Assembly: GCF_018613195.1 (NCBI RefSeq)
Contig: NZ_JAGGQQ010000019.1
Span: 124,001 to 188,000 of the forward strand
Length of the DNA stretch: 64,000 nucleotides
From: Bacillus sp. ISL-45
GTDB taxonomy: Bacteria; Bacillota; Bacilli; Bacillales; Cytobacillaceae
Direction of reading: 5' to 3'
Shown here piece after piece: positions 46,129 through 64,000 of this stretch (its first letter is position 1; each line of letters begins with the position of its first letter). The notes below the pieces were generated by a model, which saw nothing but the letters and a program-made list of their open reading frames with translations, was not told the origin of the DNA and searched no databases. Both the position numbers and the translations under genes were made by a program.

Positions 46129-46251
46129 AAACCGCGGGTATTCGACTAACGGGCTCGGGCTCCAAAAGTCAATTTTGTAAAAAGTAATGTTATTTGAAGG
46201 AATGTTCTTAAACACACGACTGCAATAGGCCAAAACACAGGTGATCTAAAA

Positions 46252-46719
46252 GTGAATATAACAATAAAACTTAATGATATAATTGAGGAAATGGAAGTAC
46301 AGTTTGAAGAGTCACGTTCATTACTAAATATTAAAACGGGCGTAATCGTGTTAGTAACATCGGAGGACTTAAGAGCTGCAGAAGACGAAGAACCATTTGA
46401 TCATTTACCTGAATGGGAACAAGAAAATAGAAGGATTGCAATGGATGTAGTAGAAAACTTTGAAATTTATATAGAGTTACCCACTAAATGGGAACGAGAT
46501 GAATATCAAATTATGGAAAACTTTTGCTTAACAGTCAGTGATCAACGGAAACAGGAACCTTTATTAAGGGCCATTAGAGGGAAGGGTGCCTTTAGAAGGT
46601 TCAAGGATAAAATATTAGAATTTGATATGGAAGAACAATGGTTTTCATACTGTGACGAGTGTTTTAAGCCAATTGCGATTGATTGGTGTCAGAAAAATAA
46701 AATAAACTATACTGAATAG
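46252..46719 (+). CDS. UPF0158 family protein
   Basis: 155 residues from GTG with AGGTGATC upstream. Acidic; the conserved core is ENFEIYIELPTKWERDEYQI, then FCLTV, then GAFRRFKD, then WFSYCDECFKPIAIDWCQKN, which is the UPF0158 signature. Function unknown. Begins the run of small accessory genes. The strong C-terminal Trp/Cys pattern resembles the family end IAIEWC. Confidence 0.82.
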   Translation: MNITIKLNDIIEEMEVQFEESRSLLNIKTGVIVLVTSEDLRAAEDEEPFDHLPEWEQENRRIAMDVVENFEIYIELPTKWERDEYQIMENFCLTVSDQRKQEPLLRAIRGKGAFRRFKDKILEFDMEEQWFSYCDECFKPIAIDWCQKNKINYTE

Positions 46720-46817
46720 GTATGATAGAGGGTGATTACTTATTAAATGGGTAATCTCCTTTTCTTATTAAAGAAAAAAAAGCAGGTTAATAAATAATAC
46801 ATAAAGGAGAGAAGGAA

Positions 46818-47231
46818 TTGGATCAAACGAAAGTAATGGTTTGTTTTAGCCTGTTTGGTGATGACTTTCCAGTCGGTTACGTAACGGATAAACTCAAAAT
46901 ACAACCCACTAATTCACATAGAAAAGGCGATATAATTCCCAATCGTTCAACTACGCTTTACCGAAAAGAGACGTGTTGGGAATATGGTACTGAGTACGAA
47001 GAAACAGAGGATGTAAATGACCAGCTCCAAAAAATTATGGAGCAGCTGCAAAATAAATCCTTATATATTCATGAATTAAAGAAGGCATACTCCCTAGATT
47101 GTAAATTCTTTATTGTCATTAAAATTGAGGCGGGAGAAACACCCGCTTTGTATCTATCTAAGGAATTTATTAAATTTGCTTCAATCGTTGAAGCTGAAAT
47201 TGACTTTGATTTATATGCTAATCCTTTTTAA
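46818..47231 (+). CDS. DUF4279 family protein
   Basis: 137 residues from TTG with AAGGAGAG upstream. FSLFGDDFPVGYVTDKLKI followed by PTNSHRKGDI matches the DUF4279 beginning; later CWEYGTEYEETEDVNDQL and KFFIVIKIEAGETPALYLS. These proteins often act as immunity-like or accessory proteins near toxins, but no toxin is seen here. Followed by the first full copy of the regional repeat. Confidence 0.8.
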   Translation: MDQTKVMVCFSLFGDDFPVGYVTDKLKIQPTNSHRKGDIIPNRSTTLYRKETCWEYGTEYEETEDVNDQLQKIMEQLQNKSLYIHELKKAYSLDCKFFIVIKIEAGETPALYLSKEFIKFASIVEAEIDFDLYANPF

Positions 47232-47253
47232 AGTGGTTATTGAAACTGGGTGA

Positions 47254-47321
47254 GTTGAGCCAGGCAGGATTAAGTGTCTTTTTTGTTGAAATGCTTATGA
47301 AGCGAAAGGGGTAAGGCGCAG
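47254..47321 (+). repeat. Regional repeat, copy 1
   Basis: GTTGAGCCAGGCAGGATTAA, then a T-run with TTGTTGAA, then the degenerate right part (AAGGGGTAAGG). It matches the regional consensus of terminator hairpin plus palindrome, and lies between the DUF4279 gene and a small membrane protein. Confidence 0.65.
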
Positions 47322-47346
47322 AAAAAATTTTAGGGGAGGCGATATT

Positions 47347-47520
47347 TTGGAAATTAAGCGTAAATTAACTTATCTTTTTACCTTGGTATTTCTAGCAATT
47401 GCAATATACCTTATTGTTGAGTCTATCTCATTTAAAGGGATATTTGACGAATTTGAACCAGTATGTATACTACTTTCTTTAATAGCATCACATTTGATAA
47501 CTACCAAGATTCTTGAATAA
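47347..47520 (+). CDS. Small two-helix membrane protein
   Basis: 57 residues from TTG 47347 with GGGGAGG 9 bases upstream. Two hydrophobic segments (about 10-25 and 38-53) separated by a short acidic loop (FDEFEPV). No family recognised. Bounded by repeat copies 1 and 2, so it looks like a single-gene cassette. Confidence 0.65.
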   Translation: MEIKRKLTYLFTLVFLAIAIYLIVESISFKGIFDEFEPVCILLSLIASHLITTKILE

Positions 47521-47550
47521 TCAGTATATTGTAATTTAACTAATTGTGTG

Positions 47551-47605
47551 CATAGATGTAGAAGGGGTTAACGCCTTTTTTTAGAAAATCCTTTTTTATT
47601 TAAAG
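47551..47605 (+). repeat. Regional repeat, copy 2 (partial)
   Basis: AGAAGGGGTTAACGCC, a T-run and AGAAAATCCTTTTTTATTTAA: the left hairpin arm and start of the right part are recognisable; the final GTTGAA-type arm is absent. Confidence 0.5.
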
Positions 47606-47626
47606 TTTTAATTGCGGGGGAATTAA

Positions 47627-47998
47627 GTGAAATAATCCATTAAAGTCATCGCATTTACTTTTGGAACACTCTTACTTATTGTAGGCGGAATAGTTCATGT
47701 GCTATTTTTGTTATTTTCACCTGATGAATTCAACCAAGAGAAATGGATAAATAAGCCTGCGGAAAGAGTTGGTATGGTGGATAGTATGCTCTCAGAAGTG
47801 GAGTTAAAAGGAAAGACTAAATCTGAGATTATAAAGCTTCTGGGCGAGGAAGAAGAAAGGGCTTATTTTAAGGAACCAAACAATATCGTATATTATTTAG
47901 GTGACGAGCGAGGTTTTATGAGTATAGACAGTGAATGGCTGGTCATTTGGTTTGACGATAAAGACAGAGTGACAGATTATGAAATTAAAACTGATTAA
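47627..47998 (+). pseudogene. Small secreted or membrane-anchored protein with TAA at codon 3
   Basis: GTG 47627 has GGGGG upstream, but codon 3 (47633-47635) is TAA. The frame then continues uninterrupted: SIKVIAFTFGTLLLIVGGI is a typical N-terminal membrane segment, followed by a soluble domain (ERVGMVDSMLSEVELKGKTK, then LGEEEERAYFKEPNN, then WLVIWFDDKDRVTDYEIKTD) to 47998. The soluble part resembles small SmpA/OmlA-like folds that follow a KTKSEIIKLLG helix. Without the stop it is a normal 123-residue gene; AAA to TAA is the simplest lesion. A restart at GTG 47699 would lose the anchor. Confidence 0.65.
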
Positions 47999-48168
47999 TG
48001 AATAACAGAGATGGTTAAACAGATTAGGTCTGAAATTCGTCTGTGAAAAAAATCTGCTTGAACATTAGTTGAAGACCAGGAGTTCTTGTGGCAGCTTCAT
48101 TTTTATTGAATAACGATGCAGTTATTTTTAAGTAGAGAATTGAGTTTTTAGATTTGGAAGAGTTTAAA

Positions 48169-48633
48169 ATGCTTTATAAGTTTACTATTATGACTCAAGA
48201 GCAGGCTGAAGATATTGCGACTAACTGGCATTACGACGGAGAGTATTCGTTTTATAATATTGAAGCTGACAGAGAAGATTTTGAAGAATTTTTAGACCCT
48301 GACAAAAGAGGTAACTCTACGTTTGCTGTAACAAAAGAAGATGAACTGATGGCTTTTTTTTCTGTTAATAAGGTAAATGATGGTGTTTTTGATACCGGCT
48401 TAGGAATGAGACCAGATATAACCGGAAAAGGGAAGGGTTTTGAATTCTTAAAGGCAGTGTTGGATTTTGTCCAATCTGAGCATAGACCTGCGAAAATTAT
48501 GTTATCAGTAGCAACATTTAATCAAAGAGCTATTAAAGTTTATAGAAAAGCGGGATTTAGAGATGGTGGAACCTTTATGCAAGATACAAATGGTAGCACC
48601 TTTGAATTCTTAAAAATGACATATGAATGTTAA
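48169..48633 (+). CDS. GNAT family N-acetyltransferase
   Basis: 154 residues from ATG 48169 (GGAAGAG upstream; the in-frame TTG 48154 is part of that site). Acetyl-CoA binding block LGMRPDITGKGKGFEFLKAV near residue 85, and the C-terminal strand NQRAIKVYRKAGFRDGGTF. Substrate unknown. Followed by a complete regional repeat. Confidence 0.88.
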   Translation: MLYKFTIMTQEQAEDIATNWHYDGEYSFYNIEADREDFEEFLDPDKRGNSTFAVTKEDELMAFFSVNKVNDGVFDTGLGMRPDITGKGKGFEFLKAVLDFVQSEHRPAKIMLSVATFNQRAIKVYRKAGFRDGGTFMQDTNGSTFEFLKMTYEC

Positions 48634-48644
48634 TTTTATTCTTC

Positions 48645-48730
48645 AGCCAACGGGGGCGGTGAGCTAAAACGGATTAACCACCTTCTTTATTGAATTCCTT
48701 ATTCAACGAGGCAGATTAGCTCAATAAGCA
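48645..48730 (+). repeat. Regional repeat, copy 3
   Basis: GGATTAACCACC, TTGAATTCCTTATTCAAC, then GAGGCAGATTAGCTCAATAA. The arms CTTATTCAAC and the later CTCAATAAG-like segment form the conserved palindrome. Same orientation as the genes. Bases 48731-48895 hold nothing else clear. Confidence 0.75.
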
Positions 48731-48895
48731 ATTAGACTAAAAGGGGTTTTTATTTGAACATTGAAAAGCGAATTAAAGCAATAGTTCAACAAGTGAATGC
48801 TTGATTTTTGCCCCGTTTATTGTTGACACGATGATGAAAGCTATGTAACAACTAAAAAAATGTTCAGTTTGAGTCGGATGGAAAGGTGTGAAAAA

Positions 48896-49315
48896 ATGGA
48901 TAAAAAAATAGACCATATAGGAATAGCTGTACGTAATTTGAACGCCAGTATTAATCTTTATATAAATGTGTTAGGAGGGAAATTGCTAGAACGTTATAAA
49001 AACGAGGATAAAGGTGTTGAAAGTGAAATCGCTGTTATAGAAATCAATGAAGATAGAATAGAATTATTGTCTCCAACAAATAATGTCACATCACCTATTG
49101 CACGGTTCATTCAACAAAAGGGTAAAGGTGTGCATCATATTGCTTATCGGGTTGACAATCTGGAGATTGCATTAGAAGAACTTAACAAACAAGGTATTCG
49201 TACATTAGAAGGTACATTAAGAATAAACAAACACGGGAGAAGATTAATTTATCTAAACCCAGCTGATACAGAAGGAACAATTATTGAGTATTGTGATTAT
49301 CCTAACCAAATTTGA
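48896..49315 (+). CDS. VOC family protein, methylmalonyl-CoA epimerase-like
   Basis: 139 residues from ATG 48896, with GGAAAGGTG upstream; the earlier in-frame ATG at 48860 has no site. Glyoxalase fold: KIDHIGIAVRNLNASINLYI (metal His), EIAVIEINEDRIELLSPT (metal Glu), KGKGVHHIAYRVDNLEIALE (metal His). Length and sequence match the methylmalonyl-CoA epimerase group. The link to the propionyl-CoA producing genes at 29 kb is only a suggestion. Confidence 0.85.
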   Translation: MDKKIDHIGIAVRNLNASINLYINVLGGKLLERYKNEDKGVESEIAVIEINEDRIELLSPTNNVTSPIARFIQQKGKGVHHIAYRVDNLEIALEELNKQGIRTLEGTLRINKHGRRLIYLNPADTEGTIIEYCDYPNQI

Positions 49316-49346
49316 TTTCTTAATGAACGAATAAAACTCTAAAAAT

Positions 49347-49957: not shown

Positions 49958-50140
49958 TTCATCCCTACTTCCATATTATTACTTTAAATGGTAATGAATA
50001 AATTGTAAGAAAGCAATGATAAATTACTTTTTAATATAATATAATTTACTTTTAAAAGTAACGATTATATAGTATTAGTAAATGTATAATAGCAATTTAT
50101 AAAACAAGTTTGGTAACAAAAAATAAACAAATGGGATACG

Positions 50141-50209
50141 TTAGTCTAGGAAGGAAAAAGGCACCTTAATATTGAATTCCTTTTAAACAGCTGATGCAGA
50201 TTAAGAAGG
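50141..50209 (+). repeat. Regional repeat, copy 4
   Basis: CTAGGAAGGAAAAAGGCACC, TTGAATTCCTTTTAAACAG, then GATGCAGATTAAGAAGG. The core TTGAATTCCTT and GCAGATTA match copy 3; the terminator stem is poor. Confidence 0.65.
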
Positions 50210-50557: not shown

Positions 50558-50585
50558 GTTCTCTTCAACTGAAGGTGGAGGTTAT

Positions 50586-50836
50586 TTGAAGAAGGAATTG
50601 GTATTTTCATTGAAGGTATAACAAGCATTTTTGCCCCCTTTAACTATCTGACAGTAATCATTATAGGTAGTTATTTCTTCTACATACTAGCTTTTTTCCT
50701 TATGTTTTACTGTAAAAGCAAAGGAACGATACTTCCCAAAAATCCATTCATCGCCTACTTATATGTACTGTTCAGTTTTATCAGTATCATTGTGAGCATG
50801 TTTTCTTTTTTTGTTCTTTCAATGTCCGGTGGGTGA
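50586..50836 (+). pseudogene. Small membrane protein with early frameshift
   Basis: GGTGGAGG precedes TTG 50586, which opens MKKELVFSLKV and stops at TAA after 11 codons. A shift near 50617 joins another frame, GITSIFAPFNYLTVIIIGSY and onward to LSMSGG at 50836, with three membrane segments. The complete protein would be about 83 residues. Frameshifted gene or a sequencing indel. 28 bases after the preceding membrane gene. Confidence 0.55.
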
Positions 50837-50856
50837 AGAGAAGTAACCAGGGTGAG

Positions 50857-50925
50857 GTTATCCAGGAAGGATTCATCGCCTCTTTTGGTAAATACCTTAT
50901 AATGCCTAACGAAGTAGTTTAGTAA
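50857..50925 (+). repeat. Regional repeat, copy 5
   Basis: GTTATCCAGGAAGGATTCAT, CGCCTCTTTTGGTAAATACC, then TTATAATGCCTAACGAAGTA with a degenerate right arm. The TCCAGGAAGGATT hairpin core is intact. Bases 50926-51064 have no recognisable gene. Confidence 0.65.
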
Positions 50926-52365: not shown

Positions 52366-52434
52366 GGGTAAAAGGAATTCATCGCCTTTTTTGTTGAATT
52401 CCTTATTAAACAAACGGAGTATAGTTGAATAAGC
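52366..52434 (+). repeat. Regional repeat, copy 6
   Basis: GGTAAAAGGAATTCATCGCC, TTTTTTGTTGAATTCCTTAT, TAAACAAACGGAGTATAGTT and GAATAAGC. The final palindrome CTTATTAAAC...GTTGAATAAG is clear. Confidence 0.75.
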
Positions 52435-52461
52435 ATTATTTTAAATCTATGTAAAAATGTA

Positions 52462-52850: not shown

Positions 52851-52934
52851 TGCTACTAACGGATGCGTTGTTCAGAAAGGATTAACGCTTTTTGTTAGAA
52901 ATCCCTATTCAACAACGGGGCAGTTAGTTGAAGC
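52851..52934 (+). repeat. Regional repeat, copy 7
   Basis: TGCTACTAACGGATGCGTTG, TTCAGAAAGGATTAACGC, then a T-run, CCCTATTCAACAACGGGGCA and GTTAGTTGAAGC. GCGTTNTTC/GGATTAACGC forms the terminator stem; TTCAAC/GTTGAA the palindrome. Confidence 0.78.
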
Positions 52935-52969
52935 AAAAAGATAGAAAAAGAGCAATGGAGGAGATTAAA

Positions 52970-53818
52970 GTGAAAATTGAATTTTTAGGAACTGCTGGTC
53001 CAATGGCTGTCCCACGACCTTTGTGTAAATGTGAGGTTTGCCACCAAGCAAGAGAAAAGGGTGTTCCATACAGTCGTTCTTGCCCTAGCTTATTTTTACA
53101 CGGACCTAATCTTTTATTTGACACCTCAGAAGATATAAATATGCAAATAAATCGTTCACAAATTACAGAAATAAACGGACTATTTTACTCACATTGGCAT
53201 CCAGACCACGTAATGGGGAGAAGAGTATTGGAACAGTTAAACACAAATTATGTTAATCACCCACCAAAGAATACGAGAACCGATGTATTCCTCCCTGAAC
53301 AAGTAGGAATTGATATCAAACGTTTTCTAGGAACTGGAGACCATCTTGAATTCTTAAACGACAAGGGGTACATAAAAATTCATATTATAGCAGATGGAAA
53401 TTCTGTGAACTTTAATGATGTAGAAGTAACACCTTTTAGATTAGCTGAAGATTATGCTTATGGCTTTTTGGTACAGGATACAGATAACAAAATCTTGATC
53501 ATTCCTGACGAACTGAGTAACTGGGACCCTGATAATAGATTTGATGGGCTAGACCTCGCAATTTTACCGATTGGTGTATTAGAATATCACCCTTCTACTA
53601 GAGAGAGAGTTGTTGATGTAAATCATCCAGTTTTAAAAGAAGAATGTACTTTTTCTGAGACAATTGAAATTATAAAAAAACTCAATCCGAAAAAAACTTT
53701 GCTTACCCACATAAATGGCTTTAGTTTCGATGATTTAAAGGCTTTAGAAGATAGACTAGAGTTGGAGGGTCTGAATATTGAAATTGCCTACGATACATTA
53801 TTAGTTGATGTAGAGTAG
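52970..53818 (+). CDS. MBL-fold metallohydrolase, PhnP-like
   Basis: 282 residues from GTG 52970, with GGAGGAG 7 bases upstream; the frame is open to 52928 without support. FLGTAGPMAVPRPLCKCEVC at the N-terminus is the PhnP-type Cys-rich start; the metal motif is HWHPDH near residue 80, with THINGFSFDDL near the end. Probably a phosphodiesterase acting on cyclic phosphates or related esters. Its strand FYSHWHPDH is intact, so the gene is likely functional. Confidence 0.85.
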   Translation: MKIEFLGTAGPMAVPRPLCKCEVCHQAREKGVPYSRSCPSLFLHGPNLLFDTSEDINMQINRSQITEINGLFYSHWHPDHVMGRRVLEQLNTNYVNHPPKNTRTDVFLPEQVGIDIKRFLGTGDHLEFLNDKGYIKIHIIADGNSVNFNDVEVTPFRLAEDYAYGFLVQDTDNKILIIPDELSNWDPDNRFDGLDLAILPIGVLEYHPSTRERVVDVNHPVLKEECTFSETIEIIKKLNPKKTLLTHINGFSFDDLKALEDRLELEGLNIEIAYDTLLVDVE

Positions 53819-53837
53819 TCGTACATTTTTTGTTGTG

Positions 53838-54725
53838 CTAACGGGTACAAGAGTACAGAAGCAACTCATTTTTGCGTTGCTTCTTCGCTTTGTTAAAAGT
53901 ATCTCTGGTAAAACCCTTTCTGAACCTTCTGCTTAGTTGAGCATAAATCCTAATGGTTTCGCTTTTCTCGTGGCCCAAAAGGCTTTGAATTACTTCTAAT
54001 GGTGCTCCATTATTTAATAAATGGGTGGCATTGCTGTGTCTTAGTTGGTGGGGGTGAACTTCCTTATCTATGCCGGCACGAGCTGAGATTTTTTTTATGT
54101 AATACTTCATTTGATTCAATATTCATTCTGTGTGGCTGCCTCTCCGTTACGAAAATAGCTGGATCCTTATCTTGTCGGCTATCAAAGTATCGTTTAAGCC
54201 ATAATTCAGCTCTGATATAAAATTAAAGTAGACTTCCCGTTCCTTATCGCGCTTTCTCCTGACTATAGACCAAATAAATGCAATTGCGATCCAGTGCAGC
54301 GAATTCTCCAATTCTGCAGCCAGTAGAAAACATCAATTCGAATAGTGCATTTTCCATGGGGCTAATACAGGCTTCAAGTTAAGTTCAATCTCCCTTTCTG
54401 ATAGAAACTTTGGGATTCTCTTGCCGGCTTTAGGTTCCTTGATCTTTGCTGCTGGATTAAGGGGTATATGCCTTTCCTCGTGACACCAGCCAAACAATGA
54501 CTTCATTAATCCAGTCCTGTGAGCCATAGGAGAAGGTTTTAAGTCCTTGCCTTGAGTAGCTAGATATTCCTTTAACCTTTCTGTATCGAAACTATCAATA
54601 TTCGGATCATTAAAATAACCAATTAGCAACTTCGCTTGGAGTCAATATGCTTTTATAGTATAAGGTGAAAAGCCTTCTATAAGTTTATCAGCTTCATAGG
54701 ATTTCCACGCAGTTGATAATAACAA
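53838..54725 (-). pseudogene. XerC/D-like tyrosine recombinase, decayed
   Basis: Reading on the minus strand from TTG 54725 (GGGAGG upstream), a SAM-like N-terminal domain (SYEADKLIEGFSPYTIKAY) meets a TGA at 54642-54644. It continues as LLIGYFNDPNIDSF and onward to about 54370. The catalytic domain is spread over shifted frames: STGCRIGEFAALD (first Arg), then the HQLRHSNATHLL box, LLGHEKSETIRIYAQL (His and Tyr). All catalytic residues are visible but at least three lesions break the frame. Length about 290 residues if repaired. It sits in the middle of the repeat array. Confidence 0.88.
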
Positions 54726-54869: not shown

Positions 54870-55724
54870 ATGTCCTACTGGGAAAAGAAAATAATTCATA
54901 CCGCACGCGGACACTTTGAGGTTTTTGTTAAAGGAGAGGGCAATCCGGTTTGCGTCACTCACCATTATTCAGAATTTAACCATACGGGTGATTACTTCGC
55001 AGATACTTTTACAGAGAATAATATGGTCTACCTTGTGAATTTAAAACATACTGGAAATTCAAGTAAGGCAAATGAGGCTCATGAGTTGAGTATGTTTGAT
55101 GCTGTATACGACCTTGAAGCAATCAGAGAGGCCCTTGGTTATTCGCAATGGAGCTTTGCCGGACACTCGACAGGAGGAATGATAGGAGTCATTTACGGTA
55201 TTCATTTTTCAAAGTCACTCACTTCACTAATAATTGTCGGGGCAGCTGCCAGGAAGTATGCTAATTCATCCTCTGAGTGTATCTATCATCCTGACCACCC
55301 ACAGTTCGATCGAATGCAGCAACTTATTGAGACTTTAAAACGCACTGATTTATCACCTAGTGAAAGGGAGCGTTTCTCAAAAGAGAGAACGAAGCTGTCT
55401 TTGTTTCATCCGGATCAGTATGATGAATACTTTCCTTTAGGCATACATAAAAAGATGTCTGCTCCAAGAATGAATTTTTTTATCAGGGAAGAAATGATCT
55501 TTGATGTAACCCGTGAGTTAGAAAAAATCTCAACTAATACTTTAATAGTGAGTGGCCGATACGATGTACAATGCCCGCTTTCTTTCTCCGAAGAAATAAA
55601 AGAGTTAATACCAAAATCACAACTATTTGTTTTTAATGAAAGCAATCATTACCCTTTCCTTGAAGAAAAGTTGTTGTTTAGACAAGTCATCTCGACTTAC
55701 TTAGAACAAACGGCTTCTAATTGA
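54870..55724 (+). CDS. Alpha/beta hydrolase
   Basis: 284 residues, GTAAGGGGA upstream. Nucleophile elbow FAGHSTGGMIG near residue 95, acid in VSGRYDVQCPLS, and His in NESNHYPFLEE: a complete Ser-Asp-His triad. HHYSEFNHTGDYFADTF is the oxyanion segment. Substrate unknown; proline iminopeptidase-like. Bases 54741-54869 upstream hold no gene. Confidence 0.88.
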   Translation: MSYWEKKIIHTARGHFEVFVKGEGNPVCVTHHYSEFNHTGDYFADTFTENNMVYLVNLKHTGNSSKANEAHELSMFDAVYDLEAIREALGYSQWSFAGHSTGGMIGVIYGIHFSKSLTSLIIVGAAARKYANSSSECIYHPDHPQFDRMQQLIETLKRTDLSPSERERFSKERTKLSLFHPDQYDEYFPLGIHKKMSAPRMNFFIREEMIFDVTRELEKISTNTLIVSGRYDVQCPLSFSEEIKELIPKSQLFVFNESNHYPFLEEKLLFRQVISTYLEQTASN

Positions 55725-55857: not shown

Positions 55858-56784
55858 GTGTCTGAAACAAAGTTCGCTGAACTTCAAAAAGATCTTTTTA
55901 GTCTATTTAAGCTGGGGAAATATAATGAAGTACATTCACTAATTGATAGAGCACAGGGGGAATTTCCTGAAAGACTACATAAAACAATCTTTTGGAGGGC
56001 TTGTGTTTATTCTTTACAAGGAAACCAAGAAAACGCCATCGCAGTTCTGAAAGAAGGATTAAAAAAGGGAATATGGTGGAACCCTTTGACTTTAACTCGT
56101 GACCCGGATTTAAATAACCTTCAAAACATCGAAGAATTTAAAATGATAGTAAATGAGTGCCAGCAAATTTTAGGAAATCATAAATATATATCTAAACCTC
56201 AACTGTTTACTTATGGAAATGATCAATCAAATACAGGAATATTTTCTTTGCATTGGCGGGGGTCTAATGTAAAAGATTTCGCTCCTTATTGGTTCGACGA
56301 TGGTTTGTTAGACGATTATCTTTTTGCATTTCCGCAATCATCTCAGGTTTTCGGATACAATGCTTATTGCTGGGACAACCAAAATATTGCCGTTGAAGAG
56401 ATATCGGTATCATTCAGCGATTTTAAAGAAAAATATAATACAAAACAGGATATTATTGCTGGTGCATCACAAGGCGGGAAATTAGCGATTGAACTAAGTT
56501 TAAATGGAAATATTCTTGGGACAAAAGGATTTATAGCAGTTATCCCAGCCATTCAGGATGTGGCTTCTTTAGAAAGTTTACTAATTGGAAATAGAAATAA
56601 AATTAAGGGCTGCATTATTACTGGAGATAAAGACCCTTTTTATAATAAAACCGTTGAGTTAGTAAAACTTTTTGAGGAAAATAACTTTCAATGCAAATTT
56701 ATGGTCAAAGAGGGTTTAGGGCACTTTTTCCCTGCTGATTTTACAGATTTGCTAAAAGAAGCCGTTGAATTCATCAATTCATAA
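55858..56784 (+). CDS. TPR-like plus alpha/beta hydrolase protein
   Basis: 308 residues from GTG with AGAGGAG upstream. The N-terminal 100 residues look like a short helical repeat (TPR-like) region (GKYNEVHSLIDRAQG, then CVYSLQGNQENAIAVL). The C-terminal domain is an esterase fold with GASQGGKLAIEL (nucleophile), TGDKDPFYNK (acid) and GLGHFFP (His). Resembles esterases of unknown substrate. Ends 6 bases before an acetyltransferase fragment. Confidence 0.78.
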   Translation: MSETKFAELQKDLFSLFKLGKYNEVHSLIDRAQGEFPERLHKTIFWRACVYSLQGNQENAIAVLKEGLKKGIWWNPLTLTRDPDLNNLQNIEEFKMIVNECQQILGNHKYISKPQLFTYGNDQSNTGIFSLHWRGSNVKDFAPYWFDDGLLDDYLFAFPQSSQVFGYNAYCWDNQNIAVEEISVSFSDFKEKYNTKQDIIAGASQGGKLAIELSLNGNILGTKGFIAVIPAIQDVASLESLLIGNRNKIKGCIITGDKDPFYNKTVELVKLFEENNFQCKFMVKEGLGHFFPADFTDLLKEAVEFINS

Positions 56785-56790
56785 CCTAAA

Positions 56791-57220: not shown

Positions 57221-57311
57221 CTTCAACTAATGGCTGCGGTTGATCCAGGAAGGATTAACTGGCTTTTTTTTTGAATTCCTTAATAAGCCAAAGAAGCAGG
57301 GAGTTGAAGAA
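57221..57311 (+). repeat. Regional repeat, copy 8
   Basis: CTTCAACTAATGGCTGCGGT, TGATCCAGGAAGGATTAACT, GGC with a T-run, TTGAATTCCTTAATAAGCC, then AGCAGGGAGTTGAAGAAG. It shows both elements plus a preceding half palindrome (TTCAACTAA). Confidence 0.8.
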
Positions 57312-57348
57312 GATAGCCCTTTTGGGTAGTCATATCTGGGGGATTATT

Positions 57349-58122
57349 ATGAGTTATAAAATTGTGTTTTTAGATGTTGATGGAACTATTACAAATTACG
57401 AAGATGGCAGCATTCCTATTTCTACAATTGAAGCTATAAGATCTTTGAAAAGCAAAGGGTTAAAGGTTGTGGCTGCAACAGGTAGACCACTTTCAATGTG
57501 TAAGGAACTACAAGAATTAGGTATCGAAACATTTATAACAGCAAATGGCGGGTATGTGAAACACAATCAAGAAGTTATTCATAAAGTACCAATGGATAAA
57601 GGCATAATTAAAGAAGTTATGGAATTTGCGAAAATAGAGAATAACGGTTTGTCATTTTATACAGAAGAATTAAGTATGAATGGTGTAACAGAACTAAAAA
57701 TCTTATCTGCCTTAAAGGAAACTTTGTCTCTAAATAAATATCCTGGAACTCAACCCTTAATTCATAATGAAGACGTATTCTTATTGTGTTTGTTTGCAAA
57801 TGATAAAACAGTTGAGAAGTATATACAAAAGTTTCCGTATCTAAGATTTAGACGGTGGCATCCCTATGTGTTAAATGTTTTGCAGGAGGACGTTTCAAAG
57901 TCTTTAGCTATAATGAAAACTTTAGAATTCTTTGGTATTGATAAATCGGAAGCTATAGCTTTTGGTGACGGTGAAAATGATATTGATATGTTGGAATTAG
58001 TAGGGCTAGGTATAGCAATGGGAAATGGAAAAGAAAAATTGAAAAATATTGCGGATTTTGTTACTAAACCATCAAGTGAAGATGGAATTGACTACGCATT
58101 AAAAAGGTATGGAATTATTTAA
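57349..58122 (+). CDS. Cof-type HAD-superfamily phosphatase
   Basis: 257 residues from ATG 57349 with TGGGGGA upstream; the frame is open back into the repeat. Motif I FLDVDGTITNYED, motif II AATGRPLS, motif III/IV IAFGDGENDIDMLELVG with KSLA upstream. Complete catalytic set; sugar- or nucleotide-phosphate substrate unknown. Confidence 0.92.
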   Translation: MSYKIVFLDVDGTITNYEDGSIPISTIEAIRSLKSKGLKVVAATGRPLSMCKELQELGIETFITANGGYVKHNQEVIHKVPMDKGIIKEVMEFAKIENNGLSFYTEELSMNGVTELKILSALKETLSLNKYPGTQPLIHNEDVFLLCLFANDKTVEKYIQKFPYLRFRRWHPYVLNVLQEDVSKSLAIMKTLEFFGIDKSEAIAFGDGENDIDMLELVGLGIAMGNGKEKLKNIADFVTKPSSEDGIDYALKRYGII

Positions 58123-58210: not shown

Positions 58211-58288
58211 AAATGGTTTTTATTCCCTGTTATAAAATTATTCAGTATAATTAACTGGAGAATAATAACTGAAAAACGGGGGGATATT

Positions 58289-58525
58289 ATGCTTTTTATT
58301 TTTGTTTCTTTGGTTGTTGTAATTGTTTCTATTTTAGTTATTCAAAGTAGAGGAATTGAAAATCCTTTTTCTAAAGGGATTGGCCTTGCTATTGCATTAT
58401 CTATTTTAGCAGCCGTTAGTCTTTCACAAAACTATACACAAAGTCTAATTCCTGAAGCCAATGATGGGATTGGTATTTCAAATAAAATGGCTTATTGGAT
58501 CATCGGTGAAGATGGTTGGTCCTAG
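58289..58525 (+). CDS. Small membrane protein
   Basis: 78 residues, ATG with GGGGGGAT upstream. One or two hydrophobic segments (about 2-18 and 30-46) and a C-terminal soluble tail ending AYWIIGEDGWS. No family recognised. Followed after three bases by a second tiny membrane frame. Confidence 0.65.
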   Translation: MLFIFVSLVVVIVSILVIQSRGIENPFSKGIGLAIALSILAAVSLSQNYTQSLIPEANDGIGISNKMAYWIIGEDGWS

Positions 58526-58528
58526 GAA

Positions 58529-58636
58529 ATGTTTAAATATGTCTTTGAACTGTCAATTCACATATCTATAATTTTAATTGCATCCTATCCAATTGTTCTA
58601 ATGCTTGAATCGAAATTGGGTAGGAAAACTGCATAA
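58529..58636 (+). CDS. Tiny membrane protein (35 residues)
   Basis: ATG 58529 follows the previous TAG by 3 bases; weak TAGGAA site, so translation may be coupled. MFKYVFELSIHISIILIASY then PIVLMLESKLGRKTA: one hydrophobic helix and a basic tail. The pair with the preceding gene resembles small toxin or accessory membrane proteins, but nothing specific is recognised. Confidence 0.5.
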   Translation: MFKYVFELSIHISIILIASYPIVLMLESKLGRKTA

Positions 58637-58641
58637 AATAA

Positions 58642-58704
58642 TGCTGCCCAAAGAGGCAGCTTTTCTTTCTTCTTTAACTAAAGGGCGGGTTAGGTTGAAT
58701 AAGG
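58642..58704 (+). repeat. Regional repeat, copy 10 (alternative hairpin)
   Basis: GCTGCC-CAAAGA-GGCAGC with a T-rich tail forms a terminator; then TTCTTTAACTAAAGGGCGGG and TTAGGTTGAATAAGG give the conserved palindrome. The left hairpin differs in sequence from copies 5-8, whereas the right part is shared. Confidence 0.7.
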
Positions 58705-58793
58705 AACAGCGGGAGCCTTTGTAAGTTAGCGCAAGTTATTGAACCTTGTAAATAGGGAGCGCATTTTAATAAATGAGGAGGAGGAGGAGAATC

Positions 58794-59150
58794 TTGAACA
58801 AGTTCTTTTTTATACCAATACTTATTATATTAGCAATAATGGTAATTGGTCTTGATGTGTTTAATTCGAAACAAGAAGTGCCGATTGAACTGGTGGCATT
58901 TGAAAGTCTAACGAATAAAGAAAAGGAGCGAATTCCTGTAAGTCCTAAAGATTCGTATGTAAAGAAAGTTACTGTGAACGCGGAAATAAAATCGGAAATC
59001 GATAAAAATTATGATGAGAAAGAAGTATATGCCGTTACTTTTCGTCATTCAGGAGCTGATTCTTCTGGAAATCTAGAAGTTTATATTGGCCTGGAAAAAA
59101 GACTGTTGTTGGGAAGAAGCCTGATTAGAAACCATTTGTATTTAGCCTAA
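58794..59150 (+). CDS. Membrane-anchored small protein
   Basis: 118 residues from TTG 58794; the AGGAGGAGGAG before it is the ribosome site, and the in-frame ATG at 58773 lies within it. An N-terminal hydrophobic helix (FFFIPILIILAIMVIGL) and an external domain (VTVNAEIKSEIDKNYDEKEV, then FRHSGADSSGNLEVYIGLEK). No family recognised. Confidence 0.6.
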   Translation: MNKFFFIPILIILAIMVIGLDVFNSKQEVPIELVAFESLTNKEKERIPVSPKDSYVKKVTVNAEIKSEIDKNYDEKEVYAVTFRHSGADSSGNLEVYIGLEKRLLLGRSLIRNHLYLA

Positions 59151-59247
59151 ATATAATATACAAAAAAAGGTACTTTAACAAACATGCAGTAATGTTAATA
59201 AATAGTATAACTTTTCTTTATTAAGCGACAGTTAAGGAGTGGAGAAG

Positions 59248-59769
59248 TTGGCTAAGAAAGAAGATATTGTTATCCGAAGAGCGAATTTAGGAGATGCTTT
59301 AGCGATCTTACATATACAAAAAGAAGTAGTATCGGAAGGAGATTATTTAATAACTCTTTCAGAGGAATTTAATAAGACATTAGAACAACAAAGAGAATGG
59401 ATAGGGAAGATTTTGCAGAACGATAAAGAAACAATTTTGGTTCCCGAAATTCCAAATGAGATAGTAGGCTGGATAGTGCTTATATCACCAAACAGAATAA
59501 GGCTTTCTCATAATGGTTCGATTGGAATGATGATAAAGAAAGATTATCGAAGTATGGGGATTGGTAAGTTATTGATGAAAGGTATGTTGGATTGGGCAGA
59601 ACAAAATCCATTTATTGAAAAAGTTTCTTTAGGCGTATTCTCAACAAATGAAAGAGCAATAGCTTTATATAATAGTATGGGGTTTATCGAGGAAGGGAGA
59701 AAGATTAAAGAATTCAAGATGGATACCAATGAATATGTAGATGATATCTTAATGTACAAGCTTGTCTAA
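59248..59769 (+). CDS. GNAT family N-acetyltransferase
   Basis: 173 residues from TTG 59248 (AAGGAG 9 bases upstream; GTG 59239 abuts that site). IVIRRANLGDALAILHIQKE at the N-terminus, acetyl-CoA site KKDYRSMGIGKLLMKGML, and NERAIALYNSMGFIEEGRK. Similar to RimI/PhnO-like acetyltransferases such as those acting on amines. Followed by repeat copy 11. Confidence 0.9.
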   Translation: MAKKEDIVIRRANLGDALAILHIQKEVVSEGDYLITLSEEFNKTLEQQREWIGKILQNDKETILVPEIPNEIVGWIVLISPNRIRLSHNGSIGMMIKKDYRSMGIGKLLMKGMLDWAEQNPFIEKVSLGVFSTNERAIALYNSMGFIEEGRKIKEFKMDTNEYVDDILMYKLV

Positions 59770-59784
59770 ATACTATTGTGTTAA

Positions 59785-59859
59785 AGGGAGCGTTGATCCA
59801 GGATTAACGCGTTTTTTGTGAACTTCTTATAAAAATAAAGATACAGGAGTTGAACAAGG
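59785..59859 (+). repeat. Regional repeat, copy 11
   Basis: GCGTTGATCC-A-GGATTAACGC is a near-perfect 10-bp terminator stem, then a T-run, TGAACTTCTTATAAAAATAA, and ACAGGAGTTGAACAAGG. Confidence 0.78.
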
Positions 59860-59922
59860 AATTTAAGATATTAGGTCCTATTCTTCAATAATAAAATTAA
59901 ATAAAACAATAGGTAGGAAGAT

Positions 59923-60171: not shown

Positions 60172-60194
60172 CAGTTACTTTTGAGTAAAGTAAA

Positions 60195-60262
60195 GGGAAC
60201 ACTGTCCTGGAAGGATTCATGCACTTTTGTCTAATCCCTTTTTAAACAAACGAAGGATAACA
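60195..60262 (+). repeat. Regional repeat, copy 12
   Basis: AACACTGTCCTGGAAGGATT, CATGCACTTTTGTCTAATCC, then CTTTTTAAACAAACGAAGGA. The right arm is cut by the following gene fragment. Confidence 0.6.
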
Positions 60263-60546: not shown

Positions 60547-60603
60547 GAGAGATTTTATACAGAATCACTTATTATATGTTAAAGGGTCAAGAGTTCTCAA
60601 CCG

Positions 60604-60660
60604 TGCTGCTAGAGAAGGCAGCATTTTCTTGTTCGACTAACGGGGCAGGATAGTTAAAAA
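60604..60660 (+). repeat. Regional repeat, copy 13 (alternative hairpin)
   Basis: GCTGCT-AGAGAA-GGCAGC plus a T-rich tail is a terminator; then TTGTTCGACTAACGGGGCAG and GATAGTTAAA give the palindrome. Same hairpin family as copy 10. Confidence 0.7.
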
Positions 60661-60705
60661 AAGTTTTTCTTTTATGGATAGGTGCAAACTGTGTAGGAGG
60701 ACCTT

Positions 60706-60768
60706 ATGAATGAATTGTATAAGTTGTTAGAAAATAAATTTCATATAGAGGTGGAATTATATGCCTAA
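60706..60768 (+). CDS. Short upstream frame overlapping the WYL regulator start
   Basis: AGGAGG and ATG 60706 open 20 codons (MNELYKLLENKFHIEVELYA) ending at TAA 60766-60768, eight bases into the next gene. The strong ribosome site suggests it is translated; it could couple translation of the regulator or be the remnant of another gene. Confidence 0.4.
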   Translation: MNELYKLLENKFHIEVELYA

Positions 60769-61717
60769 AATTGACAATATGTTAGCAATTCTATGGATGC
60801 TTCGTTCAGGTGAAAAAATTACTGCAAAACAAATTTCAGAAAAGTTAGAGATGAATATAAGGACTGTGTATCGTTATATTGATACAATTTCAACAAGTGG
60901 CGTACCTATAATTTCAGAACCAGGACATAACGGTGGATACACTTTATTGAACAATTTTATTGAGGCTCCTCTTTTTTTTGATTTTGAAGAGCAAACTTCA
61001 CTTTTTCACGCTGCTGTTTTTGCAGAAGAAGCCGGATATTATGGAGGTGAAGCACTAAATAGGGCCATTTCAAAACTAAGTAAATACTCAAATCAAGAGC
61101 AGGTAACAAAGATAAACCAACATTTAACTAGTCTTGAAGTAATAAGTCGATTAAGTTCACTCTCTATGGAACCTTTTTTGAAAGAATTGGAGCAGGCTGT
61201 AGCTGACGGGTACTCAGTAAAAATTCTTTACCATAAAAGTGGCGAAAAAAATTATAGATTGGTCGATCCGTACAGAATTATCTATTGGAATAATAAGTGG
61301 TATGTGACTGGATTTTGTCATCTTAGGAATGATATCCGTAGTTTTAGAGTAGATCGAATTGAAAGTCTAATGCTAACCGAAAATAAGTTTAACCGGCCAG
61401 AAAATTTTTCAGCACGGGACTTTTTTATGAAAAACCTCCTTCCAACTATAGAAGATAAGGAAGGGATTACTTCTTTAGTTATTAATGGAAATGAAAGTAC
61501 GCTGAATGATGTTTGCCAACATTGGTTTTTAGGACATTATTTACATGAACGAAATTCAAATCAAGCAGTATTCCTTCTTGAAAAAGATATAATACATACA
61601 TATATACCTTATTTACTTTTCCCGTACGGTAAATCTATTCAAATTATCGAGCCAATAAGTCTAAAGAAAAGACTTATTGAAGTTCTGTCGGAATTAATAA
61701 AATTTCATCAAGTATGA
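60761..61717 (+). CDS. YafY-family HTH plus WYL transcriptional regulator
   Basis: 318 residues, ATG with AGAGGTGG upstream. HTH_11 in residues 1-60 (KITAKQISEKLEMNIRTVYR, then SGVPIISEPGHNGGY) and a WYL domain around VDPYRIIYWNNKWYVTGF and SFRVDRIESL (residues 165-215), then a WCX-like C-terminus. Such regulators sense ligands or nucleic acid. Next to a DJ-1 protein that it may control. Confidence 0.92.
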   Translation: MPKIDNMLAILWMLRSGEKITAKQISEKLEMNIRTVYRYIDTISTSGVPIISEPGHNGGYTLLNNFIEAPLFFDFEEQTSLFHAAVFAEEAGYYGGEALNRAISKLSKYSNQEQVTKINQHLTSLEVISRLSSLSMEPFLKELEQAVADGYSVKILYHKSGEKNYRLVDPYRIIYWNNKWYVTGFCHLRNDIRSFRVDRIESLMLTENKFNRPENFSARDFFMKNLLPTIEDKEGITSLVINGNESTLNDVCQHWFLGHYLHERNSNQAVFLLEKDIIHTYIPYLLFPYGKSIQIIEPISLKKRLIEVLSELIKFHQV

Positions 61718-61718
61718 T

Positions 61719-61752
61719 AACTTCCCTGACGTTAGCTGTCAGGGAAGTTTTA
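61719..61752 (+). terminator. Terminator after WYL regulator
   Basis: AACTTCCCTGAC (61719-61730) pairs perfectly with GTCAGGGAAGTT (61738-61749), then TTATT. Confidence 0.88.
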
Positions 61753-61792
61753 TTATAATTGCTATATAAATTGTGATTGGGAGTGTTATTGG

Positions 61793-62425
61793 ATGCAAAC
61801 AAAAAAAGTTTATCTATATGTATTTAACACAATGTCAGACTGGGAATATGGATATTTAATTGCCGAACTAAACACAGGAAGATATTTCAAAAACGGTATA
61901 GTACCTTTAAAAGTAGTTACAGTAGGAGCTAATAAAGAATTGATTACTACGATGGGGGGACTGAGCATAAAACCAGATATTTCCATTGATGAGTGTACTC
62001 TTGAGAGTAAAGATCTTTTAGTTTTGCCTGGAGGGACTACTTGGGGAGAAGTGATTCATCAACCAATCATGAAAAAAATTGGCGAAGCCTTAAAGCTCGG
62101 CACCATTGTTGCTGCAATTTGTGGTGCAACTGAGGCTCTTGCGAATATGGGATACTTAGATTCTCGAAAACATACAAGCAATGATTTAGAGTATTTTAAA
62201 ATGGTCTGCCCTAATTATAAAGGAGAAAAATATTATGAGATGAGACCTGCGGTATCTGGTGAGAATTTGGTTACTGCATCAGGGGTTGCGCCTCTGGAAT
62301 TTACGATGGAAGTATTTAAAAAATTAGAAGTATTTGCACCAGATACTTTAAATTCATGGTATAACCTAAATAAGACTCATAAACCTGAATACTTCTTCCA
62401 GTTAATGAATTCAATAAATAGATGA
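61793..62425 (+). CDS. DJ-1/PfpI family protein
   Basis: 210 residues. Class I amidotransferase-like fold: KVYLYVFNTMSDWEYGYLIA, LLVLPGGTTWGEVI, nucleophile elbow VAAICGATEAL with Cys near residue 107, and VTASGVAPLEFTMEV. Similar to B. subtilis YdeA-type proteins. Possibly a glyoxalase or stress hydrolase. Follows the WYL regulator after a terminator. Confidence 0.9.
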   Translation: MQTKKVYLYVFNTMSDWEYGYLIAELNTGRYFKNGIVPLKVVTVGANKELITTMGGLSIKPDISIDECTLESKDLLVLPGGTTWGEVIHQPIMKKIGEALKLGTIVAAICGATEALANMGYLDSRKHTSNDLEYFKMVCPNYKGEKYYEMRPAVSGENLVTASGVAPLEFTMEVFKKLEVFAPDTLNSWYNLNKTHKPEYFFQLMNSINR

Positions 62426-62463
62426 GCTAAAAAAACAACTTAGCAGATTTATATTAGTTTTAA

Positions 62464-62551
62464 AAAAACCATGCTTTAGACAATGTCAAAGCGTGGTTTT
62501 TAATGAAAAAGCCCAATTTCTCTATTAATTAAAGGTGAAGTAGGGCTTTTT
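62464..62551 (+). terminator. Two consecutive terminator-like hairpins
   Basis: AAAAACCATGCTTT pairs with AAAGCGTGGTTTTT (62464-62501, one G-T pair); then AAAAAGCCC (62506-62514) pairs with GGGCTTTTT (62543-62551) around a 28-base loop. Both end in T-runs. Confidence 0.7.
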
Positions 62552-62763
62552 AGTATAGAAAATTCCTTAACGTTGTAAATCCGCATTTTCCTGACGATAC
62601 CCCTTCTTCTTTCTATTTTCGGCAATTAGCAAAAACCAAAAAACAAAGGGAATTTTCAGCCTGTATATAAATAACTATTCAGATAGCATATATTTTCTTT
62701 GCAATTAGCTTATTGATTTCTATATTTACTATGATGAATTAATGGCCTTGATGGAATAAGAAT

Positions 62764-62802
62764 TTTTCTTATTTAACATAAGAAGCAGGATAGTTAAACA
62801 AG
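62764..62802 (+). repeat. Regional repeat, copy 14 (right part only)
   Basis: TTTTTCTTATTTAACATAAG then AAGCAGGATAGTTAAACAAGG: the arms CTTATTTAAC and GTTAAACAAG flank the GCAGGAT core. The left hairpin is absent. The 62552-62763 stretch before it holds nothing recognised. Confidence 0.6.
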
Positions 62803-62859
62803 GTCTTTGTCTTTGTGGTAAAATATGGTGATGATACTTTTTTAAGGAGGAATATTATT

Positions 62860-63052
62860 TTGATAAAAAAAAGCTACAAACCTTTGATGATTTAATAGCT
62901 TTGGTTCTTACTTTTCTTCTTGCACCCTTAATGGAAAAGGTATTTTAGGACTATTTATTGATTTAGATAATATTTTTTTATCATCCATATTAATAGGTAT
63001 TTTCATAATTTTAGCTTTTGTGATTACAGCCATTGAAATGTACCACCTCTGA
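62860..63052 (+). pseudogene. Small membrane protein with two frameshifts
   Basis: AAGGAGG precedes TTG 62860, but the frame breaks in the A-run at about 62863-62870. A second frame gives KKLQTFDDLIALVLTFLLAP then LMEKVF and stop; a third continues GILGLFIDLDNIFLSSILIG to EMYHL at 63052. Joined, it is a two-helix protein of about 64 residues. Its 3' end merges into the insertion-sequence-like repeats. Confidence 0.5.
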
Positions 63053-63117
63053 CATAGTATTTACCACCTAATGACAAAAAGTGTACCACAGAATGACAGA
63101 CTGTTTACCACTACTTA
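63041..63117. mobile_element. Insertion sequence terminus, IS21-like multiple repeats
   Basis: TACCAC begins at 63041, 63062, 63084 and 63106 (spacings 21, 22, 22), and the first three are followed five bases later by TGACA or ATGACA (TACCACCTAATGACA, TACCACAGAATGACAGACTG). Such tandem 20-22 bp terminal repeats are typical of IS21-family ends. No transposase gene is present in the window, so this is a solo or truncated end. Bases 63118-63245 hold nothing else recognised. Confidence 0.5.
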
Positions 63118-63246
63118 GATTAACCATTTTATTACGTAGTAGACTCTTACTGCCCAACAACGATTGTCATCATTGTGGAATATATGAATAATAATTCGTT
63201 ATCATCTGGTATGATTTTATTATGGAGTTTAGCAATATTGTGAAGT

Positions 63247-63285
63247 TCTTCACTTAAACTAACGATGCAGTTCAAGAAGAACAGC
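63247..63285 (+). repeat. Regional repeat, copy 15 (right part only)
   Basis: CTTCACTTAAACTAACGATG then CAGTTCAAGAAGAAC: resembles the palindrome CTT...AACTAACGGGGCAG...TTGAAGAAG of other copies, without the left hairpin. Confidence 0.4.
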
Positions 63286-63413
63286 AGAAAAACAGCCCAT
63301 CCCCAGACCTGTAAGGACTTTCATTGATATTCTCACCTTATGACTTTTGTCGCTTTGGAAAATTCTGATATTTGATATGATGAAATTGAATTCCAAAGAG
63401 AGAAGGATTGTTG

Positions 63414-64000
63414 ATGCCCAAATGGATATCGGTTACATTAATTGTATTTATTCTAATCCTTGTTTTATTGCTTGTTATTCCAAAAATCGCAAAAGTCCTG
63501 TTTATAAAAAATGCACAAGAAAAGGCATCGTTATTGCTTAAAGAATCAAATAGTGAAAATACAAAAAAAATTGAAAAAGCGGATATAAAAAACTTACCAT
63601 ATCCCGTGCAAAATTGGTTAATACATTCTAAGGTAATAGGAAAAGAACAAATTAGAACGGTTCGCTTAAAACAAGGTGGAAGAATGCGTACAAGGAAAGA
63701 CGGCACTTGGATGCCAGTAAAAGCAGAGCAATACTTTACCACTGACAAACCAGGGTTTGTATGGATTGCAGACGTCAAGATGGCACCTTTTATACAATTA
63801 TCAGGAAGGGATACCTATTTAGATGGTAAAGGGAAGATGAATATTAAACTGCTTTCTTTATTCCCAGTAGTAGATGCAAAAGGGCCGGAGATGGATTCTA
63901 GCACTATGATGAGATACCTAGCTGAAATGATGTGGTTTCCATCCGCTGCGCTAAGCCCTTATATTAAATGGGAGGAAGTTAATAAAAACGCTGCAAAGGC
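63414..64000 (+). CDS. DUF6544/DUF6920-like membrane-anchored protein (3' partial)
   Basis: 195 codons to the window edge, with no stop. ATG 63414 has AGAAGG 7 bases upstream. An N-terminal hydrophobic helix (WISVTLIVFILILVLLLVI) is followed by a domain with LPYPVQNWLIHSKVIGKEQI, TVRLKQGGRMRTRKDGTWMP, KPGFVWIADVKMAP, and MMWFPSAALSPYIKWEEV. This pattern matches the DUF6544 (formerly DUF6920) family of unknown function. The real gene continues to the right. Confidence 0.75.
   Translation, partial: MPKWISVTLIVFILILVLLLVIPKIAKVLFIKNAQEKASLLLKESNSENTKKIEKADIKNLPYPVQNWLIHSKVIGKEQIRTVRLKQGGRMRTRKDGTWMPVKAEQYFTTDKPGFVWIADVKMAPFIQLSGRDTYLDGKGKMNIKLLSLFPVVDAKGPEMDSSTMMRYLAEMMWFPSAALSPYIKWEEVNKNAAK

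Follow-up and report, generated by a model that had tools for sequence, protein, structure and literature searches.

A co-oriented gene-cassette array in Bacillus sp. ISL-45, a probable relic of an integron-like system with an Xer-type recombinase

The DNA considered here, called the window below, is a stretch of 64,000 nucleotides from Bacillus sp. ISL-45 (contig NZ_JAGGQQ010000019.1; C12:124001-188000 in our numbering) in a host genome of 4.6 Mb in 27 contigs. Its right-hand part holds small accessory genes separated by short repeats of one orientation, and among them lies a broken gene for an Xer-type tyrosine recombinase. Comparison with related genomes and loci (G and L numbers, respectively) makes it very likely that this array is a relic segment of a Bacillaceae-wide cassette system, integron-like in its working and built from a different recombinase.

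Repeats in the window and the host genome

The original prediction placed about fifteen same-orientation repeats between 46140 and 63414, and the array that it reported is confirmed. A profile hidden Markov model (HMM), trained on 73 long-form copies from relatives with the window copies excluded, found 11 copies between 47244 and 62806, all on the plus strand (E 3e-4 to 1e-16); it found no repeat in the first 46 kb of the window and no match in the reversed window sequence. A sequence model, R1 (61 training rows, two of them window copies), was run on the host genome and added 47535-47637 (E 7e-4), bringing the count to 12. A looser pattern, tolerating as many as 12 mismatches in 35, picks up 50560 and 58669 as well, has no reversed-control match, and is weak evidence alone because it also matches 39278 (outside the array), 56875 and four minus-strand places, two of which are palindromic sites seen from the other side. 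Copies at 46140 and about 63260 are visible by eye without statistical support, so that the estimate of fifteen was a fair one. The predicted right-hand limit did not hold, as further R1 matches at C12:188969-191734 carry the array past the window edge. The repeats and sites of the window, all on the plus strand, are as follows:

47244..47311, plus: repeat, terminator and degenerate core site (profile 36.8 bits)
47535..47637, plus: degenerate repeat (R1, E 7.4e-4)
48640..48733, plus: repeat, long form (profile 59.0 bits; row in alignment A1)
50129..50203, plus: degenerate repeat (profile 22.8 bits)
50560..50594, plus: degenerate core site without terminator (8/35 mismatches, reversed control 0; pattern only)
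50849..50923, plus: repeat (profile 32.4 bits)
52372..52437, plus: repeat (profile 49.3 bits)
52852..52935, plus: repeat, long form (profile 45.1 bits)
57221..57315, plus: repeat, long form (profile 57.2 bits; terminator 57237-57261)
58669..58703, plus: core site, short form (9/35 mismatches, reversed control 0; pattern only)
59778..59862, plus: repeat, long form (profile 27.4 bits; terminator 59790-59810)
60186..60252, plus: repeat (profile 26.5 bits)
60625..60665, plus: core site with an exact CTAACGGGGCAG 12-mer (profile 22.7 bits)
62765..62806, plus: core site (profile 18.9 bits)

Across the host genome R1 matched 55 places at E ≤ 0.05. These form clusters on C12 (plus strand except for one, which overlaps a plus-strand match), C26 (all minus) and C2 (all plus), with a few single matches on other contigs; copies scattered genome-wide in both orientations, the pattern of a miniature inverted-repeat transposable element (MITE), were not found. 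Further C12 repeats lie at 103-111 kb and 209-255 kb, the latter sparse and partly weak. A strict 33-base palindrome had no match in this genome because the copies are too eroded, and relatives were used instead. Terminator-like sites in the window exceeded those in shuffled sequence (15 versus 8.9), and a promoter scan of the window returned fewer hits than the shuffles did (62 versus 71.4).

Repeats across relatives

The search of the host genome and its relatives advised in the original prediction was productive, returning, besides the clusters above, repeats at E ≤ 0.001 in 144 of 151 family genomes (counts stop at 26 per genome, and one or two weak matches may be chance). The strict core pattern, with at most two mismatches, occurred in 52 of the 151 and its reversed control in none. 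In 144 loci (2.589 Mb) we counted 957 copies, of which 946 follow the local majority orientation and 11 oppose it, with none in the reversed sequence. Most of these loci were chosen for a nearby strict match or recombinase, which biases repeat density, and some are the same stretch taken twice, so part of the 957 copies are not independent (of 791 right sites, 688 have a unique context). An earlier, nearly non-redundant locus set gave the same picture, with 446 of 449 copies in the majority orientation, three against and none in reversed sequence. Small gene cassettes arrayed in one orientation, a defining feature of integrons, are thus present. The phage record collection gave no repeat match at E 1e-3.

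One repeat (L213 591-671) stands behind an ASCH-domain gene on the 5,990-bp plasmid pSP10-6k of Sporosarcina psychrophila, which carries a MobV relaxase gene; such a small plasmid is a possible cassette vehicle. Cytobacillus plasmids that share a site were also considered and set aside, as they differ by a stretch of about 4 kb within the radC region that does not correspond to a cassette.

Anatomy of the site

The repeat anatomy in the original prediction was right. The core site is lox/dif-like, with inverted arms CTTATTCAACTAAC and GTTAGTTGAAYAAG flanking an asymmetric 7-bp spacer, GGGGCAG, and usually a terminator before it. The consensus of the short form is perfectly palindromic, with 14-base arms either side of the spacer. 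The long form comprises a left half-site (..CTAACGGGTGCG), a terminator hairpin, a T-run, GTTGAATTCC and then a full right site. The spacer ends in CAG at 632 of 688 unique right sites, a count biased upward because the sites were selected by a pattern that includes CAG; its first four bases are variable.

The sites are conserved in sequence (alignment A1). A covariance model had been suggested for them; RNAalifold found no base pairs in the repeat alignment, so that R1, the model run on the genomes, was built on sequence alone. The short palindrome by itself folds well (-11 kcal/mol) and may therefore fold in the cell. Repeats from three scanned sources had no Rfam match. The observation that the arms fit RYYYAAC/GTTRRRY stands; it does not make the site an attC site. 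TATAAT-like boxes are mildly enriched 25-54 nt past the spacer start (545 versus 439) without a sharp peak, and the idea of the right arm as a -35 box with a -10 box at fixed distance was rejected for want of such a peak. The terminators within the repeats count against promoterless cassettes read from Pc.

An alternative right arm (..CATTCCTGNAAT..), often followed by TTGTGAAN..ACTTAAAC, recurs at the L103/L104 junction and in L096, L097 and L107, and may represent a second class of site.

The array recombinase and its unit

The original prediction reported no visible integron integrase. This is correct for IntI, the best match in the host genome reaching 96 bits against a cut-off of 265. A cognate recombinase is nevertheless present in broken form, opposite to the array:

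53834..53849, plus: left half-site GCTAACGGGTAC, recombinase-unit boundary (recombinase-unit homology from many relatives begins at about 53838)
53895..54725, minus: array recombinase pseudogene, Xer-type tyrosine recombinase (59% identity to the intact G053 copy)
54870..55724, plus: alpha/beta hydrolase gene, companion of the recombinase in several relatives (PF00561, 1e-16)

The pseudogene contains three TGA codons and one TAA codon and is the only recombinase copy found in the host genome. Intact copies (279 amino acids as aligned) lie inside arrays of G020 and G053. The recombinase or a relative was found in 62 of 151 family genomes (E ≤ 1e-70, the window pseudogene counted) and in two of 298 other genomes drawn across the phylum (65% and 52% identity). 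Among the best 80 of 350 stretches, 78 recombinase loci fall in named genomes of many genera, including Neobacillus, Mesobacillus, Cytobacillus, Peribacillus, Litchfieldia, Metabacillus, Psychrobacillus, Sporosarcina, Domibacillus and Oceanobacillus. Two of the records, titled Chryseobacterium sp. ISL-80 (L134) and Paenibacillus sp. FSL R5-0490 (L137), match genomes G057 and G037 in the window's GTDB family, and their titles look mislabelled.

Wherever a recombinase of at least 75% identity was placed with a repeat call present, the gene ran opposite to the array (113 of 113 placements, not all distinct); three further placements at this identity had no repeats. The gene sits in its own unit of about 1 kb, bounded by core sites. 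The unit starts with a left half-site, a median of 48 nt past the gene end, and ends at a core site a median of 76 nt ahead of the gene start. By a loose pattern the left half-site was detected beside 79 of 83 recombinases versus 35 of 83 random places. A core site lay within 130 nt of the gene start in 59 of 84 distinct copies versus 4 of 84 random places with gaps allowed; the ungapped pattern gave 45/83 versus 6/83. Alignment of the units of L081 and L097, from different genera, revealed 97.5% identity and divergence at the spacer on both sides. In several relatives, L101, L103/L104, L106, L107, L112 and L113, the hydrolase forms part of a 1.9-kb recombinase-hydrolase block that is 87-89% identical to that of the window; in L107 and L113 a site stands behind the hydrolase. 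Every one of the 44 genomes in which a recombinase matched at 75% identity or more (fragments included) had at least 10 repeats, compared with 51 of the 107 others (p 1.6e-11).

A second subfamily, about 65% identical, was found in L095 (7462-8298), L114, L115, L116, L209 and L212. It lies along the array in two loci, and repeats are few or absent near the rest.

Family and fold of the recombinase

The intact G053 recombinase was recognized as Xer-like, below every curated cut-off: XerA 212/220 bits, XerD 209/329.6, XerC 208/335.15 and IntI (TIGR02249) 99/265. Six residues, R136, K163, H226, R229, H252 and Y261, are the same in all 26 members aligned, among them phage enzymes, and supply the R-K-H-R-H/W-Y set of tyrosine recombinases. 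Only 63 residues separate the lysine from the HxxR motif, as against 103 in IntI1, and the I2 insertion is absent; the I2 domain is described as an IntI feature in the available portion of PMC4792948.

In a 72-row tree, rooted at midpoint only, 25 array recombinases form one clade (support 100/99) that groups first with the 65% paralogs and, beyond them, with Xer-like rows from phage and Bacillota, while the IntI rows (two only) fall elsewhere on a long branch. Recombinases of the viral contigs L236-L263 are 37-68% identical to the array enzyme, and the flanks examined of 28 phage-borne recombinase loci contained no repeats. The closest solved folds are XerA chains, followed by archaeal Xer, XerD and IntI4, although the full-length XerA superposition is loose (root mean square deviation 9.5), and a viral fold library matched phage integrases. 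The predicted structure has a mean predicted local distance difference test score (pLDDT) of 84 and a predicted template modelling score (pTM) of 0.58, which leaves the domain placement uncertain. The system is integron-like, and is not an integron.

Cassettes as units

Cutting the first locus set between successive right sites yielded 292 cassettes with a median length of 737 bp. Among these, 21 pairs, several of which share members, were at least 80% identical over at least 80% of both cassettes, and we inspected 15 of the 21 alignments fully and two partly. At the left end of the cleanest pairs the terminator and arm upstream differ and everything right of the spacer matches; at the other end the gene, terminator and left arm match and everything right of the spacer differs. 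The boundaries are blurred in less similar pairs. Averaged over the 21 pairs, identity outside the unit is about that of random site pairs and inside it is above random. The best inter-genus cassette, 98.7% identical over 2640 bp in G110 and G020, has different neighbours on both sides. Judged from these alignments, gene, terminator and left arm behave as one unit.

Related loci, whose comparison for gain or loss had been recommended, gave 17 candidate indel rows, several representing the same event, and seven events were read at the sequence level. Two of these lie at a spacer: a 1837-bp difference between L103 and L104 with flanks 99.9 and 100% identical, and a 2451-bp difference between L107 and L113 with flanks 91 and 97% identical. 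The remaining five differed elsewhere and are weighed below. The cassette reading put forward at the outset is therefore supported by units in different contexts, by two spacer indels, by clustered co-oriented copies and by the accompanying recombinase.

Sharing between genera also involves longer stretches. A 6.2-kb block is 99.2% identical in two genera (L091 7821-13979 and L092 6331-12468), and a third genus (L095 2776-5535) shares it only up to the recombinase-side site.

Cassette contents

Among 469 cassettes whose longest open reading frame (ORF) reaches 50 amino acids, this ORF runs in the sense direction in 379; the 90 with an antisense longest ORF will include recombinase units. Of 140 ORFs drawn, 90 were scanned, returning GNAT (4), SUKH (3), NUDIX (3), DinB (3) and many single families (87 in all). 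PADLOC gave scattered matches among 90 cassette proteins (three PDC-S07, two mad2, one PDC-M40A), which indicates that known defence genes do not make up most of the arrays. The window array carries the following genes:

46252..46719, plus: cassette gene, UPF0158 (PF03682, 3.9e-9; 83% DNA identity to Paucisalibacillus locus L188)
46818..47231, plus: cassette gene, DUF4279 (PF14106, 5.3e-34)
47699..47998, plus: cassette gene without Pfam match (85% DNA identity over 411 bp to L097/L138)
48154..48633, plus: cassette gene, GNAT acetyltransferase (PF13302, 5.9e-12)
48860..49315, plus: cassette gene, VOC/glyoxalase (PF13669, 3.5e-19)
52928..53818, plus: cassette gene, metallo-beta-lactamase-fold hydrolase (PF12706, 3.8e-16)
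55858..56784, plus: accessory gene, A/B hydrolase-like (PF22316, 3.7e-9)
57271..58122, plus: cassette gene, HAD hydrolase (PF08282, 3.8e-55)
59239..59769, plus: cassette gene, GNAT acetyltransferase (PF00583, 3.1e-16)
60639..62608, plus: two-gene cassette, genes 60761-61717 and 61793-62425 (91% identical to a G020 cassette, L032)

The two genes of the last cassette are presumably those of a helix-turn-helix regulator (60761-61717) and a DJ-1/PfpI-like protein (61793-62425). Homology to the G020 cassette starts at the spacer of site 60625, and the sequence upstream differs. Single-gene matches to relatives (81-85%) cover 46205-46777, 47602-48010, 58212-58691 and 58711-59183.

Two further observations concern DNA outside the array. 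A cobalamin riboswitch (RF00174, 126 bits) lies far from it at 14530-14726 on the plus strand. Positions 1-16000 have a G+C content of 0.34-0.40, close to the 0.32-0.37 of the array, with mostly 0.40-0.49 between 16 and 46 kb; the profile HMM found no repeat in this low-G+C region.

Alternative explanations

The original prediction offered MITE-like spread as an alternative. In such a scheme only the repeats, or a terminator mini-element together with the recombinase unit, would insert between static genes. The recombinase unit does look like an element that has integrated, its ends being attL/attR-like, and the long repeat resembles a version of that unit with an internal deletion. Homologous cassettes, however, recur with their own terminator and different neighbours, and the repeat copies form clusters of one orientation. 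This account is insufficient, since the genes move along with the repeats, and we regard it as improbable. Homologous recombination by RecA could also shuffle genes with no dedicated recombinase, given that similar repeats of about 90 bp sit at the junctions and that their similarity blurs the crossover. We find this very unlikely, since the cleanest junctions bracket the 7-bp spacer, the two L103/L104 sites have little sequence in common, and the arrays come with a recombinase unit that is bounded by the same sites and keeps a constant orientation.

Two known site-specific systems share features with the array. A degenerate classical integron array, that is, a cluster of attC sites lacking an integron integrase (CALIN) and once served by IntI, would explain the fit of the arms to the attC consensus and the one-way order of small accessory genes. 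The integron link drawn in the original prediction is one of analogy alone: the bit scores of the host genome and of the array recombinase fall far below the IntI cut-off, the enzyme lacks the I2 insertion and stands apart from the two IntI rows, and the sites are sequence-conserved, with no significant arm covariation and no Rfam match. A classical origin of this kind is highly improbable. Host XerCD, as with the pdif modules of Acinetobacter, would suit a core site that is dif-like in form (two arms and a short spacer) and an Xer-like recombinase; yet the array sites enclose a dedicated recombinase that tracks repeat number, and they are direct repeats of one orientation, unlike C and D dif modules, which according to the accessible text of PMC13141974 alternate between inverse sites. 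Movement by XerCD is hardly credible on this evidence.

Proposed mechanism

Considering these comparisons, we favour a dedicated cassette system. A cassette would consist of right arm, gene, usually a terminator, and left arm, adjacent cassettes meeting at the core site. An Xer-type tyrosine recombinase would bind both arms and exchange strands at the spacer, and recombination between two neighbouring sites would release a cassette, presumably as a circle, which could insert at another site in the same orientation. The asymmetry of the spacer and the shared direction of nearly all sites in an array would make such release and insertion possible. The recombinase gene is carried reversed on its unit, and since this unit is bounded by array sites the enzyme may spread with the arrays. 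With the sole recombinase detected in the host genome broken and the sites eroded, the window array is probably frozen, a relic. Across the Bacillaceae we consider it likely that a live counterpart of the integron evolved independently, in which a phage-derived Xer-type recombinase, itself a cassette, captures and excises gene cassettes and passes them between genera via double-stranded lox-like sites.

Several observations weigh against this proposal. Its support is wholly comparative, with no circle, excision or recombinase activity observed. The crossover base is blurred, because the repeats resemble each other: in nine pairs gapped homology ends spread from -75 to +24 around the spacer. 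Five of the seven indels read at the sequence level fall away from a site, and the right end of the L103/L104 insert is without a full left arm. Covariation between a site's own arms did not reach significance (z 1.6); had it done so, it would have pointed to circles that fold on a single strand. In 25 of the 84 recombinase copies no site was recognized within 130 nt; these include most copies from the window's genus (to which G045 also belongs), several with the hydrolase gene intervening. Repeats flank the recombinase on both sides in most loci, unlike the one-sided integron, and two copies of the 65% identical paralog lie along the array and not opposite to it, so this paralog may differ. 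Finally, the 51 genomes with at least 10 repeats and no recombinase match imply that many arrays are relics or are served in trans.

Relation to known systems

Like chromosomal integrons and superintegrons, the arrays are long, one-way series in which unrelated small accessory genes each carry a site; the tyrosine recombinase gene lies opposite to the array, and arrays without a recombinase also occur. They differ in that the recombinase is Xer-type, without I2, and in another region of the tree, that it rides its own unit inside the array, that the site is short, two-armed and sequence-conserved whereas integron attC is folded, and that the long-form repeats bear a terminator. The pdif/dif modules of Acinetobacter plasmids are likewise genes bounded by short Xer-type core sites and shuffled between replicons. 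They are served by host XerCD, with a 6-bp spacer and alternating inverse sites, in the part of PMC13141974 consulted; the arrays have a dedicated recombinase, a 7-bp spacer and sites that are nearly all co-oriented (946/957) in place of inverse alternating XerC/XerD sites. Phage-encoded Xer-like recombinases of Bacillota belong to the same family as the array enzymes, but none of the 28 phage loci has repeats and the array enzymes form their own clade. The bcr1 element and other small Bacillus repeats are also short, structured and intergenic in Bacillus-like genomes; compared by description, the accessible part of PMC2267715 mentions no recombinase or cassettes for them.

No description of these arrays was found in the open-licence text of PubMed Central (PMC), a search outside which closed journals and preprints lie, nor in the available portions of PMC9024848, PMC13141974, PMC4792948, PMC8946536 and PMC2267715. 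Integrons are described as extremely rare in Firmicutes (PMC9024848, in part), and one review proposes that they may be excluded from Gram-positive bacteria by a lack of host factors (PMC8946536, in part).

Were a separate system to share this layout, cassette arrays would have arisen two or more times in evolution, a plain double-stranded core site might be enough for them, and many of the small accessory genes in Bacillaceae would be moving as cassettes. Because the array recombinase groups with phage ones, the finding bears on whether integrons arose from phage or from Xer recombinases. If the live counterpart is real, Gram-positive bacteria would gain a gene-capture platform thought to be nearly absent from them.

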